In this document: in pieces, positions 1,930 through 38,783 of the stretch
Numbering within the stretch: the first letter of the stretch is position 1
Layout of the letters: the number at the start of each line of letters is the position of its first letter
IMG/VR virus record: IMGVR_UViG_3300025154_000195
Coordinates: 1 to 42,498 of that record
DNA: 42,498 nucleotides
Origin: a virus
Strand: one strand, 5' to 3'
Made by a program: the position numbers and the translations under genes
The notes under the pieces: generated by a model
Told to the model about the DNA's origin: nothing
Seen by the model: the letters and a program-made list of their open reading frames with translations, nothing else
Databases searched by the model: none

Positions 1930-2050
1930 TGACCGCTCCCCAGCAGATCGCTGACCCTTGTTAATTGTTGTGGTGTTGCCGTATAACCATCCCGCCCAAG
2001 CTGTTTCCACCGGGTAGTTCACTGGATTATTTCCAGCGGACGGGCCAGTC
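1930..2050 (-). ncRNA. candidate c4-like antisense RNA
   Basis: The gap between two early genes has no convincing protein but folds well as minus-strand RNA. A 7-bp stem CCCGUCC/GGGCGGG (2038-2044 with 1991-1997) encloses a CUGGA-AAUAA-UCCAG hairpin (2022-2036). Downstream, bases 1934-1957 are the exact reverse complement of 9776-9799 in the antirepressor leader, over 24 bases, and can form a small hairpin (CAGC/GCUG) whose GAUCU loop is complementary to the matching AGAUC loop of the target. An extended -10 promoter lies just upstream. Known analogue: C4 antisense RNA of phages P1/P7 (Rfam RF01695), which blocks antirepressor translation. Assignment to that family is inference; I could not run a covariance search. 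Confidence 0.6.
1934..1957. repeat. 24-bp repeat shared with the antirepressor leader (copy 1)
   Basis: These 24 bases begin CGCTCCCCAGCAG and end CGCTGACCC on the plus strand and recur without mismatch at 9776-9799. The centre is a dyad CAGC-N5-GCTG. Because the early operon is transcribed leftward and the antirepressor rightward, the two transcripts are complementary here. Confidence 0.9.
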
Positions 2051-2906: not shown

Positions 2907-3362
2907 ATGAAATCTAATTATTCGACATATTTATATTTTCGAGCATTTGTCAAAAAATGGCTTAAAGATAATGGCAAAACTCAAAATTGGCTTGCGCTTG
3001 AGTTACAAGTTGAAGATGGCACGATTAGCAAATACCTTGGGAATGATTTCAGGATAGCGCCATTCGAAAAGCAACTTCAAATATCTGATATAATTGAAGT
3101 TGATTATTTAGAAATACTTCAAAAAGGGAAAGATATTATAGATGGGGAACCCATTAAAACAATAAAGATACTATCTGAACATCAAAACCTTGTTTCTAAA
3201 TTTAAAAATCCAGAAAAGGCTAAAGAAATAAATGAAGACTTGCTTATTCTGGAATCAATAGATTTACATGGTTACGAAGAAGTTCATGATATTATAAAAA
3301 TGAAGCTAAAAAGAAAAACAGAAGCTATAAAAAAGAGACCAGCAGCAAACGGAAACGACTAA
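2907..3362 (+). CDS. CI-like lysogeny repressor without S24 peptidase
   Basis: A 151-residue protein. Residues about 10-55 (VKKWLKDNGKTQNWLALELQ, then VEDGTISKYLG) form a helix-turn-helix of the phage repressor type. The rest is charged and helical, with no LexA/S24 peptidase motifs, so RecA-stimulated self-cleavage is not expected. The gene is divergent from the Cro-like gene across shared operator-like repeats and is the first gene of the plus-strand, lysogeny-side genes. No ribosome site is visible before ATG 2907; a leaderless message is possible. Induction would then need another input, and the Bro-N antirepressor at 9906 is the obvious candidate. The stop codon is provided by a repeat that recurs in the island. 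Confidence 0.7.
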   Translation: MKSNYSTYLYFRAFVKKWLKDNGKTQNWLALELQVEDGTISKYLGNDFRIAPFEKQLQISDIIEVDYLEILQKGKDIIDGEPIKTIKILSEHQNLVSKFKNPEKAKEINEDLLILESIDLHGYEEVHDIIKMKLKRKTEAIKKRPAANGND

Positions 3363-3389
3363 ATGCAGAATCATACTATTTAGCAAATA
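3341..3389 (+). repeat. island repeat ACTAAATGCCGGAT, copy A
   Basis: The segment has AACGACTAAATGC, AATCATAC and TTTAGCAAA blocks. It overlaps the end of the CI-like gene and supplies its stop. Related copies are at 5306-5346, 5729-5770 and 8371-8415. CTAAA and TTTAG form short inverted arms in copies A and C. Confidence 0.55.
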
Positions 3390-5037: not shown

Positions 5038-5258
5038 ATACATTTGTTATCTGTATCAACAACAAAGATAACCCGGCAAGCCTGATCATGGGTAAAGTAT
5101 ACCGGCAGCTGCCGGACAAGGACGCGGAAAAAAGAAATATGCTACGGGTTATAGATGAAGATATAGCAGAGCTGGATGGGTATCTTTACCCATCGGTTAT
5201 TTTCGCCCAGATCGATTTGCCAGAAGTCGCAAAAAAGGCCCTGCTGGCAGTTAATTAA
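5034..5258 (+). CDS. small conserved-type protein, second of a coupled pair
   Basis: A 74-residue protein starting MNTFVICINNKDNPASLIMG, with a KVYRQLPD segment and a C-terminal DLPEVAKKALLAVN. From memory it resembles a widely distributed small family of unknown function (CINNxDxPASL... YLYP). It is coupled to the upstream gene by an ATGA overlap. The last codons and the stop lie in the first unit of an exact 34-bp tandem duplication. Confidence 0.65.
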   Translation: MNTFVICINNKDNPASLIMGKVYRQLPDKDAEKRNMLRVIDEDIAELDGYLYPSVIFAQIDLPEVAKKALLAVN

Positions 5259-5307
5259 AAAAGAGAACATCAACCTGCTGGCAGTTAATTAAAAAAGAGA
5301 ACATCAA
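5240..5307 (+). repeat. 34-bp exact tandem duplication
   Basis: Two identical units, 5240-5273 and 5274-5307, start CCTGCTGGCAG and end GAGAACATCAA. The first unit includes the last codons and stop of the upstream gene. The perfect identity suggests a recent slippage or unequal recombination event. Confidence 0.9.
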
Positions 5308-5382
5308 ACGGAGAAGACTAAATGCCGGATCGATCCCATTTATCAAAAAAAATAGAACAAACAATATCATGGGATCCCTGAT
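5306..5382 (+). repeat. island repeat, copy B, with GGGATCCC palindrome
   Basis: The block AAGACTAAATGCCGGATCG (around 5314-5332) matches the other island repeats. About 50 bases further on is ATCATGGGATCCCTGAT (5366-5382). Copy C at 5729 has the same two parts at nearly the same spacing. Confidence 0.55.
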
Positions 5383-5722: not shown

Positions 5723-5728
5723 AAGCAT

Positions 5729-5803
5729 CCAACGACGAAGACTAAATTCCGGATGATACCGTTTAGCAAATTTGGCTTTTCTGAAAAATCAGGGAACCCT
5801 GAT
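5729..5803 (+). repeat. island repeat, copy C, with ATCAGGG hairpin
   Basis: AAGACTAAATTCCGGATGATA (around 5738-5758) is followed by CCGTTTAGCAAA and, at 5788-5803, the perfect hairpin ATCAGGG-AA-CCCTGAT. The two-part layout matches copy B. Confidence 0.55.
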
Positions 5804-9264: not shown

Positions 9265-9320
9265 GGGAATTCCGGGGACACTATATAAAAAAGGGAATTC
9301 CGGGGACACTATATAAAAAA
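9265..9320 (+). repeat. 28-bp exact tandem duplication with GAATTCCGGGGACAC core
   Basis: Units 9265-9292 and 9293-9320 are identical (GGGAATTCCGGGGACAC...), with a partial third start at 9321. The last unit supplies the purine-rich stretch before the ribosome site of hicB. GAATTCCGGGGACAC-type sequences are, from memory, common dispersed repeats in deltaproteobacteria, often near RAYT/IS200-type transposases; none is present here. Confidence 0.85.
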
Positions 9321-9330
9321 GGGGAATACC

Positions 9331-9534
9331 ATGAAATTCACACTTATATACGGCATAGACGACGGCTGGTACGTAGGGCGTTTACAGGAGATTCCAGGCG
9401 TAATCAGCCAGGGAGAAACACTTGAAGAACTCAAAGAGAACATTGCCGATGCCTACAAGCTTCTTATGGAGGACGCCATGGGACTTCCGGTACCGGGACT
9501 TCACACTGAAGAAATAGACCTGAACTTTGCATGA
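9331..9534 (+). CDS. hicB: HicB-type antitoxin
   Basis: A 67-residue protein: MKFTLIYGIDDGWYVGRLQE, IPGVISQGETLEELKENIAD and AYKLLMEDAM are the standard HicB-fold core (partial RNase H-like). No C-terminal DNA-binding domain is present, so this is the short form. The ATG has AAGGGGA 5-6 bases upstream. The stop overlaps the start of the toxin gene (ATGA at 9531-9534). HicB would bind and block the HicA mRNA interferase. The pair probably stabilises the prophage or limits competing phages. Confidence 0.88.
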   Translation: MKFTLIYGIDDGWYVGRLQEIPGVISQGETLEELKENIADAYKLLMEDAMGLPVPGLHTEEIDLNFA

Positions 9535-9710
9535 AGCGACGCAAATTTATTAAGGAGCTTGTTGAACATGGCTGTTATCTGAAACGACACGGCAGCAGTC
9601 ATGATCTGTATGCCAATCCAGCCAACGGCAAGGTTTCACCAGTTCCGCGCCACCCGGAAATAAAAGACCTGACATGCAGGCTGATCCGGAATCAGTTGGG
9701 GATTGACTGA
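9531..9710 (+). CDS. hicA: HicA-type mRNA interferase toxin
   Basis: A 59-residue protein starting MKRRKFIKELVEHGCYLKRH. GSSHDLY follows, with the family catalytic His at residue 24, then VPRHPEIKDLT, the usual HicA C-terminal pattern. Length is normal for HicA. It starts inside the hicB stop codon, so translation is coupled and the antitoxin comes first, the reverse of many hicAB operons. The family cleaves mRNA in a dsRBD-like fold. Confidence 0.88.
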   Translation: MKRRKFIKELVEHGCYLKRHGSSHDLYANPANGKVSPVPRHPEIKDLTCRLIRNQLGID

Positions 9711-9736
9711 AATAGCTATAGCGGCGTTAAAAATAT

Positions 9737-9766
9737 TTGACATTTTTATTTTGATCATGAGAGAAT
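9737..9766 (+). promoter_or_regulatory. candidate antirepressor promoter
   Basis: TTGACA (9737-9742) and GAGAAT (9761-9766) are 18 bp apart. The -35 is perfect; the -10 matches at four of six positions. A start near 9773 would put the 24-base repeat at the extreme 5' end of the transcript. Confidence 0.5.
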
Positions 9767-9775
9767 AACAACGAT

Positions 9776-9799
9776 CGCTCCCCAGCAGATCGCTGACCC
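9776..9799. repeat. 24-bp repeat in the antirepressor leader (copy 2)
   Basis: Identical to 1934-1957. In the antirepressor mRNA it would be paired by the minus-strand early transcript. Its last three bases (CCC, 9797-9799) are also the start of the hairpin that holds the leader ORF ribosome site, so pairing here would change that hairpin. It can also form a small CAGC-AGAUC-GCUG hairpin. Confidence 0.9.
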
Positions 9800-9905
9800 C
9801 TCCACCATGGAGGGGTAAAATGCAAAAATCAGCAAGCACAATAAAATCTAAATCTAAATTTGCGTCATACACCTCCTTTTATTCAAAAACTTTAAAGGAG
9901 GTCGT
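9796..9905 (+). promoter_or_regulatory. two ribosome-site hairpins in the antirepressor leader
   Basis: Hairpin 1: ACCCCTCC (9796-9803) pairs with GGAGGGGT (9809-9816) around ACCAT; its 3' arm is the ribosome site of the ORF at 9820. Hairpin 2: ACCTCCTTT pairs perfectly with AAAGGAGGT, the ribosome site of the antirepressor at 9906, around a loop of about 14 bases. Ribosomes on the leader ORF would run through hairpin 2 and free the antirepressor site. This predicts strict translational coupling. Confidence 0.75.
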
Positions 9906-9909
9906 ATGA
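9820..9909 (+). CDS. 29-residue leader ORF coupled to the antirepressor
   Basis: ATG 9820 follows GGAGGGG at 5 bases and encodes a basic, Ser/Lys-rich peptide (MQKSASTIKSKSKFASY...). Its TGA overlaps the antirepressor ATG (ATGA at 9906-9909). The peptide itself need not have a function: the ORF runs through the hairpin that hides the antirepressor ribosome site. It stands where orfx/icd stands in the P1/P7 immI operon. The call as a translated ORF rests on the ribosome site, the overlap and the hairpin, not on homology. Confidence 0.6.
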   Translation: MQKSASTIKSKSKFASYTSFYSKTLKEVV

Positions 9910-10667
9910 GCAACATCATTCCATTTTCGTACCAAGAAAAAGAAATCAGAGTTATCGAGGACCAGGAAGGAAATCCATGGTGGGTTGCCAAGGATATTTG
10001 TGAAATTCTTGGGTATGCTGATCATAATTCAGCAGTGAGAAACCACCTGGATGATGATGAAAAGGGTATGCATACAGCGCAGACCCCTGGCGGAAAGCAA
10101 GAACTCATCACGGTTAACGAATCCGGCCTTTATACACTTATGGTCAAATCTACAAAACCGGAAGCAAAACCATTCCGAAGATGGGTGACATCAGAAGTCC
10201 TTCCATCAATCCGTAAAACAGGCTCATACACCATGCCTGACTACGAACCAGAAACACTGATCCCCGTATCAAACGAATTCAAAGCGGCCGTTGCAATTGC
10301 AAAGGCCGCCGGACTGAAAGGAAATCAGGCCACACTTTGCGCGAATACAGCAGTTCGCCGCATAACCGGCGTAAACCTTCTTGATATTATTGGCGCCACA
10401 CACTTGATCTGTGAAGAGCAGGAACAACACCTGACAGCCACCCAGCTTGGTAAAATACTGGGGCTCACCGCCCAAAAAACCAATAAGCTGCTTGAACAAA
10501 ATGGCGTCATTGAATCTTACCGGGACGATAAAAACAAGCTCAACTGGAAGCCAACCGCCAAAGGCAAACAATATACCATTCTCAAAGATACCGGTAAAAA
10601 ATCCGGGTCCGGGACCCCTGTTCAGCAACTTTTTTTCCTTGAAAGCGTCCGGGAGGTGATGTCATGA
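9906..10667 (+). CDS. ant: Bro-N/KilAC phage antirepressor
   Basis: A 253-residue protein. Residues about 1-110 are a Bro-N domain (NPWWVAKDICEILGYAD, VNESGLYTLMVKSTKPEAKP, FRRWVTSEVLPSIRKTGSY). Residues about 120-250 form a KilAC/ANT-type C-terminal domain (LTATQLGKILGLTAQKTNKL). The family includes antirepressors that inactivate phage repressors. It has a strong AAAGGAGGT site sequestered in a hairpin and is coupled to a leader ORF. The next gene overlaps it by ATGA. It is the likely trigger of induction, because the CI-like repressor lacks a cleavage domain. Gene symbol by analogy with P1/P22 ant. Confidence 0.85.
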   Translation: MSNIIPFSYQEKEIRVIEDQEGNPWWVAKDICEILGYADHNSAVRNHLDDDEKGMHTAQTPGGKQELITVNESGLYTLMVKSTKPEAKPFRRWVTSEVLPSIRKTGSYTMPDYEPETLIPVSNEFKAAVAIAKAAGLKGNQATLCANTAVRRITGVNLLDIIGATHLICEEQEQHLTATQLGKILGLTAQKTNKLLEQNGVIESYRDDKNKLNWKPTAKGKQYTILKDTGKKSGSGTPVQQLFFLESVREVMS

Positions 10668-36436: not shown

Positions 36437-37333
36437 TCAAACCATCGCATATTGGCGCCTTCCTGCAGTTGTGATACACAAGCCATGGTCCCGGCGTTTA
36501 AGCTCCTCCATAGCCACGACATTGCCCACATCAGCCAGCATCTTCAGGGTGCCAATCGGCAGATTTCGGAATTGCTCACCGGCGGCCTGCCTGTCCGCCG
36601 ATTTCTCCGGGCCCGGCTCCCAGCCGTCGGCCCATTTGTTTTTGATGGTCTTGTCAAGATATGCGCGGAATTGATTGCTTCCTCCACGAACATTGCTGGC
36701 TGAATATAAAATTGCTTTCTTAAGTTCGTTTTCAGAGCAATCAGACATGGCTTTATTTACCAGGGTCAACACCATGGGACTGCGATGGCATTCCGGAATC
36801 AAATTTAAAATTTGGGTAGAAGAAGACGACGACGACGACGGCAACGGAAGGACACCGCCACGAACCCTTGGGGCTGGTTCCGGTTCCGGCGTAGTAGTTT
36901 TTGTTTCTTTCAGTATTTGTTTATTATTAGTATTTAGTATGGGGTCGGTTTCCTGCTGGGTGAAAACCTGCTGGAAGGTTGATTCTGTTGATGTTTTTGC
37001 GGCAACATCCATGTTGAGATACTGTTCGGCCTCATCTCTTGTCAATGGCGGTAAACAGAGCACCTGTTCAACTTTTTTGATACGGCCATTTTCTCTTATG
37101 ACAAACCGGTGGTAAAAATTATTGGCGCCCCATTCTTGCACAGTAGACTTAACGGCATGGATACCCTCACTGTTTTGCTTGGCAAGCCAGGCAAAATTAA
37201 AATTCCAGTTCGCAGGCTTGCTCAGAACCTGCAGCAACATGAATTTAGCTTTTGCACTCATGTCCGGGTAGTTGGTGAAGATATCGTTCTGGATAACCGT
37301 GAAATTACGGTCTGGCTTGGGCATGATGATCAT
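36437..37333 (-). CDS. phage replication initiator-like protein
   Basis: A 298-residue protein. Residues about 5-100 are a winged-helix replication domain (NDIFTNYPDMSAKAKFMLLQ, WLAKQNSEGIHAVKSTVQEW), as in DnaD/gpO-like initiators. A low-complexity linker follows with seven Ser near 170. The C-terminal domain (LVNKAMSDCSENELKKAILY, YLDKTIKNKWADGWEPGPE) is helical. It probably loads the D5-type helicase at the phage origin. A broken copy of the C-terminus lies at 7281-7480. Confidence 0.72.
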   Translation of the reverse strand: MIIMPKPDRNFTVIQNDIFTNYPDMSAKAKFMLLQVLSKPANWNFNFAWLAKQNSEGIHAVKSTVQEWGANNFYHRFVIRENGRIKKVEQVLCLPPLTRDEAEQYLNMDVAAKTSTESTFQQVFTQQETDPILNTNNKQILKETKTTTPEPEPAPRVRGGVLPLPSSSSSSSTQILNLIPECHRSPMVLTLVNKAMSDCSENELKKAILYSASNVRGGSNQFRAYLDKTIKNKWADGWEPGPEKSADRQAAGEQFRNLPIGTLKMLADVGNVVAMEELKRRDHGLCITTAGRRQYAMV

Positions 37334-38145
37334 AATATCACCTCCCCGCCGGGCTGGGATAAACGCACACCCAGATAATAAATCACCCCGGATTTACGCC
37401 GCTCAAACTGCCTGGCCATCTCCATGCCAAAAGCTTTGAGGGTCACCGTGCCTGGAGATGGCAAGTTCTCCCTGGCCCAGGCGATGAACGCCTGATATAA
37501 CACCCCGGCCCGCTCTGAATATTCTTCTCCAACGTCGCACTGCTCATACATCCATCTTCCGATGGCGTCACGGGCCATGGATTTTTTGCCCAGGCCACCG
37601 GACTCCAGGCCGGAGGAGAGCTGTCTTTCATCCAGTTCGGCCAGCAGGTCATCCACCGGCATACCCGTGAAATAGTTCAGGGCCTTCAGGGCTGCCTTGC
37701 CCTCCAGGTACTTGTCCGCGCTCTCCACCAGCTTGGCCATGGGGAAATACATATTGCCGGACCGCTTCACACAGGCGTCATCCATGAACCTGGGATCTCC
37801 TGTGCCGGGCATCTGGTAGCTGCCTGTTTTGCGGATGGCGGGCAGGACCTCTTCGAAAATCCACGCTTCGAACTGTTCGGCTTCCGGGAGGTGGGATTTT
37901 ACGATGAGACGATAGACATCTGGTTCTTTTATTACTCTAACTTCCTGTTTCCCACCTGACGTATAAAGAAAGTAGTGATTTGCGACCCCCTTACAATGCC
38001 TTGAAATAGCGTCATTGGTATTCACATACCCCAAAGCAACGGCAACGTCCTTGGCAACAAACAATGAATTGCCATTCTCATCCCGGATCACCCGCACCAA
38101 ACTATCATCAAACCAAAACGGTGTTACTTCATGATTCATATTCAT
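37330..38145 (-). CDS. Bro-N protein with a D5-type C-terminal wing domain
   Basis: A 271-residue protein. The first 115 residues are Bro-N (NSLFVAKDVAVALGYVNTND, SHLPEAEQFEAWIFEEVLPA, IRKTGSYQMP). The last 80 (GRWMYEQCDVGEEYSERAGV, LYQAFIAWARENL, MARQFERRKSGVIYYLGVRL) resemble the winged helix found at the C-terminus of D5/P4-type helicases, including the one at 40926. It is a second Bro protein, in the lytic operon, and overlaps the replication gene by 4 bases. It may be an antirepressor or a replication regulator. Confidence 0.72.
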   Translation of the reverse strand: MNMNHEVTPFWFDDSLVRVIRDENGNSLFVAKDVAVALGYVNTNDAISRHCKGVANHYFLYTSGGKQEVRVIKEPDVYRLIVKSHLPEAEQFEAWIFEEVLPAIRKTGSYQMPGTGDPRFMDDACVKRSGNMYFPMAKLVESADKYLEGKAALKALNYFTGMPVDDLLAELDERQLSSGLESGGLGKKSMARDAIGRWMYEQCDVGEEYSERAGVLYQAFIAWARENLPSPGTVTLKAFGMEMARQFERRKSGVIYYLGVRLSQPGGEVIL

Positions 38146-38429
38146 GCTCTCCCCTCCAGTTCCCGAACCCTGTTTTCAAGTCTGTTCATTTGATCCTGGG
38201 CCACACACACCAGAAAACCAATTTCGTCCGCCGCATCATCAATGATCTCTCCCAGGGCATACACCTCACCCGACCGGTAGGATTCAAACGGGATACTTTT
38301 TTTCATAGAAGATTCATTGTGAATTAAGGTGGAGATCATCTTGATCTTGCCCAGGGGATGACAGGTTAAAAACAACGGATCGTTTTCGTTGCGGATCTGT
38401 TCTTCCGTCATAGCGCTCTTAATCTGCAT
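38142..38429 (-). CDS. unknown protein, 95 residues
   Basis: ATG 38429 (MQIKSAMTEEQIRNENDPLF) is preferred; GGGGGGTG lies upstream. Segments SGEVYALGEIIDDAADEIGF and a C-terminal coiled coil (MNRLENRVRELEG) are visible. Function unknown. It overlaps the Bro-N gene start (ATGA). Confidence 0.6.
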   Translation of the reverse strand: MQIKSAMTEEQIRNENDPLFLTCHPLGKIKMISTLIHNESSMKKSIPFESYRSGEVYALGEIIDDAADEIGFLVCVAQDQMNRLENRVRELEGRA

Positions 38430-38504
38430 GGGGCACCCCCCATTGAACGGAGAAAAGGGAAAACAAAACACACCGGCAGAACACCGGCGAATAAAGACTG
38501 GACA

Positions 38505-38783
38505 TCATAATGCCTCCTGTGAAAGTTGTTTTTCAGCCCTTTTCGCTGTCAAACAAAAAGGGCGACCATGCGGGTTGACAGACCGGTCACAGGGTCCGGC
38601 AGGCCAGAAGGCCTCCCGCATGGCCGCCCAAATAGAAGGCACCATGCTGCGGACAAAAAAAACCGCCATAAAGGCGGCTGCATGTCCGCCTGTGAACCGG
38701 GCTGTCAATCCCGATTGCCGGGTATCTCCGGCAACGTGTTCACCATACCCGGTTTTGGGGTTTTGTGTCAAGGGGGTATTCAT
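38505..38783 (-). CDS. doubtful ORF, perhaps an Ash-like small phage protein
   Basis: A 92-codon frame (MNTPLTQNPKTGYGEHVAGD) with SGLTARFTGGHAAAFMAVFF. The wording recalls, from memory, the small Phage_ASH-type ORFs, but the AAFMAVFF part is the translation of a perfect terminator hairpin with eight T. The region may be non-coding; without this ORF, 38430-38786 has only the terminator. Confidence 0.3.
   Translation of the reverse strand: MNTPLTQNPKTGYGEHVAGDTRQSGLTARFTGGHAAAFMAVFFVRSMVPSIWAAMREAFWPAGPCDRSVNPHGRPFCLTAKRAEKQLSQEAL
38655..38678 (-). terminator. intrinsic terminator inside the replication operon
   Basis: Minus strand: CCGCC-TTTAT-GGCGG followed by eight T (plus-strand A-run 38655-38662). 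The stem extends with G-T and A-T pairs. It stands between the truncated KilA-N gene and the Bro-N/initiator genes, so late transcription must read through it or start again below it. Confidence 0.75.

Follow-up and report, generated by a model that had tools for sequence, protein, structure and literature searches.

The leader RNA of a phage antirepressor gene is predicted to fold on itself, so that translation of the antirepressor would be off by default. The window analysed is a complete viral record, IMGVR_UViG_3300025154_000195 (42,498 bases), which is a temperate phage. Two hairpins lie in series in the leader, one over the ribosome site of a short leader ORF and the second over that of the antirepressor, and the two reading frames overlap. 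A double lock with translational coupling, a kind of control already known, is probably the mechanism and the most likely one; the repression, the coupling and the RNA start we infer. The features of the locus are as follows.

9737-9766, plus strand: putative promoter, TTGACA-18-GAGAAT, from a pattern scan (10/12 matches), with TG preceding the second hexamer
9772-9792, plus strand: hairpin 0, from folding; 8 bp with one bulge and a CCCC loop, z -3.2
9796-9816, plus strand: hairpin 1, ACCCCTCCA (9796-9804) paired with TGGAGGGGT (9808-9816); 9 bp, 3-nt loop
9809-9815, plus strand: ribosome site of the leader ORF, GGAGGGG, from the sequence; probability unpaired 0.000
9820-9909, plus strand: leader ORF, 29 codons (MQKSASTIKSKSKFASYTSFYSKTLKEVV), no Pfam or PHROG match
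9860-9913, plus strand: hairpin 2, from folding; 19 bp with two 1-nt bulges
9894-9902, plus strand: ribosome site of the antirepressor, AAAGGAGGT, from the sequence; probability unpaired 0.004
9906-9909, plus strand: ATGA stop/start overlap of the leader ORF and the antirepressor, from the sequence
9906-10667, plus strand: antirepressor gene, 253 aa; Bro-N 5.7e-30, KilAC/ANT 5.6e-7
2907-3362, plus strand: repressor-like gene

The gene at 9906-10667 belongs to the antirepressor family. Its Bro-N and ANT domain matches both exceed the Pfam cut-offs and its product matches the PHROG anti-repressor Ant at 5.2e-57; by homology, the product would inactivate a repressor. A hicBA toxin-antitoxin pair lies upstream, and a deaminase and an integrase lie downstream. 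The early and structural genes are transcribed from the minus strand. The repressor-early promoter region is occupied by TGGAAACAT/ATATTGGAAA repeats (2806-2897), which do not recur ahead of the antirepressor promoter. Thus control after the start of transcription is plausible.

Several other repeats were seen in the window. A perfect tandem 28-base repeat (two copies of GGGAATTCCGGGGACACTATATAAAAAA, 9265-9320) lies directly upstream of hicB and is possibly the hicBA operator, and a perfect tandem 34-base repeat, also in two copies, is found at 5240-5307. A 29-base sequence is present in three copies that are 83-100% alike (3343-3371, 5302-5330 and 5726-5754), between accessory genes, and it ends close to ACTAAATGCCGGAT. 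A third phage (L168, 2281-3420) carries the same hicBA pair but a different neighbour gene and integrase, and no antirepressor; hicBA therefore moves independently of the leader. That phage, which shares hicBA and the lysis genes and has another repressor, has neither such a leader nor the 27-nt element described below.

Transcription of the leader is predicted to start at about 9773, the position given by the putative promoter, although about 1.3 sites of equal match are expected by chance in the region. The fold of 9770-9930 has an energy of -50 kcal/mol as compared to -24.4 +/- 3.3 for shuffled sequences (z -7.9), and none of 200 shuffles was as good. Hairpin 1 contributes -16.7 kcal/mol (z -3.5; 2/500 shuffles equally good). 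A sequence-only reading of this DNA had proposed that the leader ORF has its ribosome site hidden in hairpin 1, and GGAGGGG is indeed buried there; the stem is present as well, and its length of 9 bp is one above the figure given then. Hairpin 2, folded within 9856-9914, has -23.5 kcal/mol (z -7.4), which none of 500 shuffles equalled. The same reading had the antirepressor site hidden by a perfect 9-bp stem, and this was borne out: the core pairs ACCTCCTTT (9871-9879) with AAAGGAGGT. The hairpin is larger than had been described, as CATAC/GTATG and further pairs extend the core to 9 + 6 + 4 pairs, and the antirepressor AUG (9906-9908) is also paired within it. Both ribosome sites are computed to be unpaired no more than 0.4% of the time. 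In folds of the growing RNA, hairpin 1 is complete by 9820 and is then retained, and hairpin 2 is complete by about 9912. No U run that would make an intrinsic terminator or attenuator follows the leader hairpins on the plus strand. A search of 9500-10000 against Rfam gave no family match, and C4, isrK and c4-a1b1 were absent even at a permissive threshold.

As had been proposed, the leader ORF crosses hairpin 2, and its stop codon forms the ATGA overlap with the antirepressor start. The open frame alone is weak evidence, having a probability of 0.16 in dinucleotide shuffles; the case therefore rests on the placement of the ribosome site and the exact overlap. The leader ORF and the antirepressor show the marks of a coupled pair, a stop/start overlap together with an occluded downstream site (0.4% unpaired), and also that of a C4/IsrK-type operon, a short ORF (9820-9909) overlapping the downstream gene (ATGA at 9906). 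Coupling at ATGA-type overlaps is well documented (PMC6728339, PMC12548453), and strict coupling was found in 13 of 14 overlapping gene pairs tested (PMC6728339).

In the proposed mechanism, the RNA from about 9773 would form hairpin 1, covering the ribosome site of the leader ORF, and hairpin 2, covering the site and AUG of the antirepressor. The antirepressor would be reached only after ribosomes load on the leader ORF, once hairpin 1 opens. On their way these ribosomes would melt hairpin 2, and at the ATGA overlap they would reinitiate on the antirepressor. The sequence-only reading expected two such locks in series to hold the basal antirepressor level very low in lysogens, an interpretation that the present results support in part.

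The same leader was found in one viral contig only (record G002, L003/L036), which is about 97% identical here. Across 9770-9909 there are four differences, at 9817, 9826, 9902 and 9903. Hairpins 0 and 1 are untouched and the core of hairpin 2 keeps 8/9 pairs; the A-U pair 9871-9902 is lost, and the fold is still predicted (whole stretch z -6.4). The two leaders are too similar for a covariation test, and their comparison neither proves nor refutes constraint on the stems. Three of the differences fall in the leader ORF, and all are amino-acid replacements (K3Q, V28A); they thus give no sign of selection on the leader peptide. The antirepressors of the two phages (window 9906-10667, L003 2001-2762) are nearly identical except for residues ~35-65, which have diverged as if a Bro-N recognition segment had been swapped.

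The design is not common to the family, since more distant relatives have other upstream layouts. One close protein relative of the antirepressor was found among viral contigs and none among genome contigs. In G359 the antirepressor is 79% identical over 135 aa and truncated, and follows an unrelated short leader without a leader ORF; this leader carries a promoter-like sequence of its own, and the GGAGAG of the ribosome site is taken up in a hairpin of 6 bp. A full-length antirepressor of 43% identity has an ordinary gene upstream. In 389 genomes from the class to which the best genome hit belongs, the leader DNA gave just short, chance-level matches. An exact search of 2.9 million viral contigs for the anti-ribosome-site hairpin returned 32 stretches with varied downstream genes; such hairpins recur across phages, though without this leader. 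In a survey of 99 Bro-N genes whose ribosome site could be recognised and 488 control genes, the site was less than 0.2 unpaired in 36% of the former and 21% of the latter (p 0.011), an excess that is weak evidence because many of the loci are related. Hiding of the site thus appears to be a loose theme among the Bro-N family, and the double lock has to date been seen in a single immunity type. Many Bro-N genes of proteobacterial prophages, for example in L083, L068, L088, L104 and relatives (near 2500), are predicted to pair their ribosome site with codons 5-8 of the same gene, which read I-I-P-F or the like.

The phage has a second antirepressor module, with these features.

37330-38748, minus strand: second module as a whole, with C4 RNA, isrK, c4-a1b1, leader ORF, 95-aa ORF and Bro-N gene
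38656-38748, minus strand: isrK and c4-a1b1 matches, Rfam, below threshold with small E-values
38557-38634, minus strand: C4 antisense RNA, Rfam, 53 bits (gathering 45)
38508-38419, minus strand: leader ORF of the second antirepressor, 29 codons, ribosome site AGGAGG
38429-38142, minus strand: 95-aa ORF, overlapping the leader ORF 38508-38419

The second Bro-N gene overlaps the 95-aa ORF through ATGA, and the layout before it matches that of IsrK-orf45-anrP. The genome therefore holds two Bro-N genes, each in a set of overlapping genes that a short leader ORF precedes; a C4-type RNA accompanies one of them and local hairpins the other. As the C4 module precedes the second antirepressor, RNA-gated, coupled antirepressor operons are both known and present in this genome. 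Action of the phage's C4 RNA on the first leader was considered and rejected, the duplex being no better than shuffles.

The immI region (c4-icd-ant) of phages P1 and P7 resembles the present proposal in that the antirepressor is held off at translation via an upstream overlapping ORF; icd is coupled to ant. It differs in that no C4 RNA is found at the leader described here, where the lock consists of local hairpins. The action of C4 RNA (Rfam RF01695) has been described (PMC12197685). In the Gifsy-1 IsrK-orf45-anrP system, anrP requires translation of orf45, whose ribosome site is freed by a trans-acting RNA (PMC4825925). Here too an antirepressor-type gene follows a short ORF whose ribosome site is buried, leader translation would be needed for the downstream gene and a trans RNA might open the leader. 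IsrK is encoded at the same locus as a small RNA of its own, which has a terminator and refolds between inactive and active forms, whereas the present leader has two local hairpins and no terminator, and its candidate trans RNA is the opposite-strand early operon, 7.8 kb distant. In phage P22 (sar/ant) an RNA also controls translation of the antirepressor; sar is a separate antisense RNA pairing with the ant mRNA, whereas here the message's own 5' leader would close the site. In phage f1 genes VII-IX, a hairpin covers the downstream site, the genes overlap by 4 nt and the upstream ribosome opens the hairpin (PMC12548453). The hairpin over the downstream site and the 4-nt overlap are shared with the present locus, but no hairpin lock on the upstream ORF is described for f1 (PMC12548453).

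The double lock is favoured because the folds lie far beyond shuffles, both ribosome sites are buried, the ATGA overlap is exact and no terminator follows the hairpins, and because of the same fold in the close relative, the C4 module with its leader ORF in the same phage and the Gifsy-1 and f1 precedents. Against it are counted the ~97% identity of the sole relative, the lost core pair, the other layouts ahead of the 79% and 43% antirepressors and the lack of a conservation signal in the leader peptide. A local hairpin that would lock the leader ORF and its coexistence with a C4 module are unusual, as is a possible early-mRNA key. The last derives from a repeated element.

9773-9799, plus strand: 27-nt element GATCGCTCCCCAGCAGATCGCTGACCC, at the 5' end of the predicted leader RNA, repeated at 1931-1957
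1931-1957, minus strand: second element copy, within the early operon, 33 nt ahead of the ATG of gene 1542-1898

When the leader was searched against its own record, the second copy was the one other match (E 2.1e-7). The copies are identical at 26/27 bases, and the element is the sole dispersed near-perfect repeat among the repeat families listed for the window. Since the antirepressor is on the plus strand and the early operon on the minus strand, their RNAs are complementary over 27 bases, with one G-U pair. The predicted duplex of leader and early RNA scores -87.6 as compared to -53.4 +/- 5.9 for shuffled partners. The element begins at the predicted RNA start and ends 4 bases inside hairpin 1. 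With 9773-9799 occupied in silico, hairpin 1 retains 5/9 pairs and the probability that its ribosome site is unpaired rises from 0.000 to 0.15; the modelled opening by the 27-bp duplex is thus partial only. Both copies are unchanged in G002, where the adjacent early gene, the counterpart of 1542-1898 (L037:6001-6354), is interrupted at codon 14 by an in-frame stop. No second copy of the leader start is present in G359, the genome of the 79% relative. Among 114 Bro-N leaders, a few others share a repeat of 16 nt or more with their flanks, as searched over ~2.5 kb. Two were examined: one lies within a pair of duplicated genes, the second repeats a part of its leader region beyond the antirepressor, and neither was clearly like the 27-nt case.

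The RNA of the early operon might therefore be a trans-acting key that opens hairpin 1, a candidate that the sequence-only reading, made without the 27-nt complementarity, did not have. What would open hairpin 1 is speculative; the best candidate is the early RNA, paired with 9773-9799, in which case early transcription would raise the antirepressor and lock in lysis. That this pairing is functional, and activating in direction, is a tentative suggestion that we rather doubt. The same doubt attaches to the fuller picture of a coincidence detector, in which intergenic RNA of the early operon unzips hairpin 1 and so sets off a relay by way of the leader ORF, through which hairpin 2 is opened.

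Where a temperate phage carries dispersed repeats, they are most commonly operators. The element could likewise be a protein-binding DNA site, an operator or similar, common to the antirepressor promoter and the early operon, with control being transcriptional; the DNA palindrome of hairpin 1 could also be a protein site, and the RNA complementarity would be incidental. This is a real possibility, yet one that we would not expect to hold. The element overlaps the predicted RNA start and holds two GATCGCT copies 15 nt apart, and two genomes are compatible alike with RNA pairing and with a shared protein site. However, the 42 kb hold just two copies, the second inside an operon without a clear promoter, and the repressor/early promoter region (2507-2906) has other repeats but no copy nearby; 27 contiguous non-palindromic bases are also long for an operator. 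Hairpin 1 as one of several operators was rejected, as its palindrome occurs once only, even when 4 mismatches are allowed.

The complementarity could also work in the opposite direction. A constitutive leader RNA would pair with the early RNA, and the duplex would be cut or would block early expression; the leader would then be an immunity RNA, chiefly stabilised by its hairpins. C4 and P22 sar are precedents for antisense RNAs active in phage immunity (PMC12197685), and the complementarity is full-length with a duplex far stronger than shuffles. Silencing of this kind is nevertheless unlikely: the duplex would end 33 nt upstream of the early AUG, beyond the usual ribosome footprint, the relative keeps the element intact beside a gene stopped at codon 14, and no terminator would yield a short RNA. 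Both a shared protein site and antisense silencing could coexist with the hairpin lock, hence the confidences overlap.

Attenuation like that of ErmC, in which a ribosome stalled on the leader ORF keeps hairpin 2 open and so ties the antirepressor to starvation or translation stress, is quite improbable. The leader ORF is Ser/Lys-rich and covers the 5' arm of hairpin 2, and occupying this arm raises the antirepressor site from 0.4% to 31% unpaired (computed). But the arm has no run of one codon type, hairpin 1 would prevent loading on the leader, and every change to the leader peptide in the relative is a replacement. A chance structure without a regulatory role, with the antirepressor translated from its own strong ribosome site, is least probable: paired sites are common (21% of control genes are less than 20% unpaired) and an open leader ORF is no rarity (0.16), but none of 200-500 shuffles reached the z values of the leader (-7.9) and of hairpin 2 (-7.4).

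If the double lock holds, the phage would have a second, C4-independent leader-ORF gate for an antirepressor, beside a C4 module within the same genome. If the early RNA is its key, leaky early transcription would be converted through the antirepressor into a committed switch, through RNA alone. The locus thus bears on whether early lytic mRNA can itself be the trigger RNA of a lysogeny switch.
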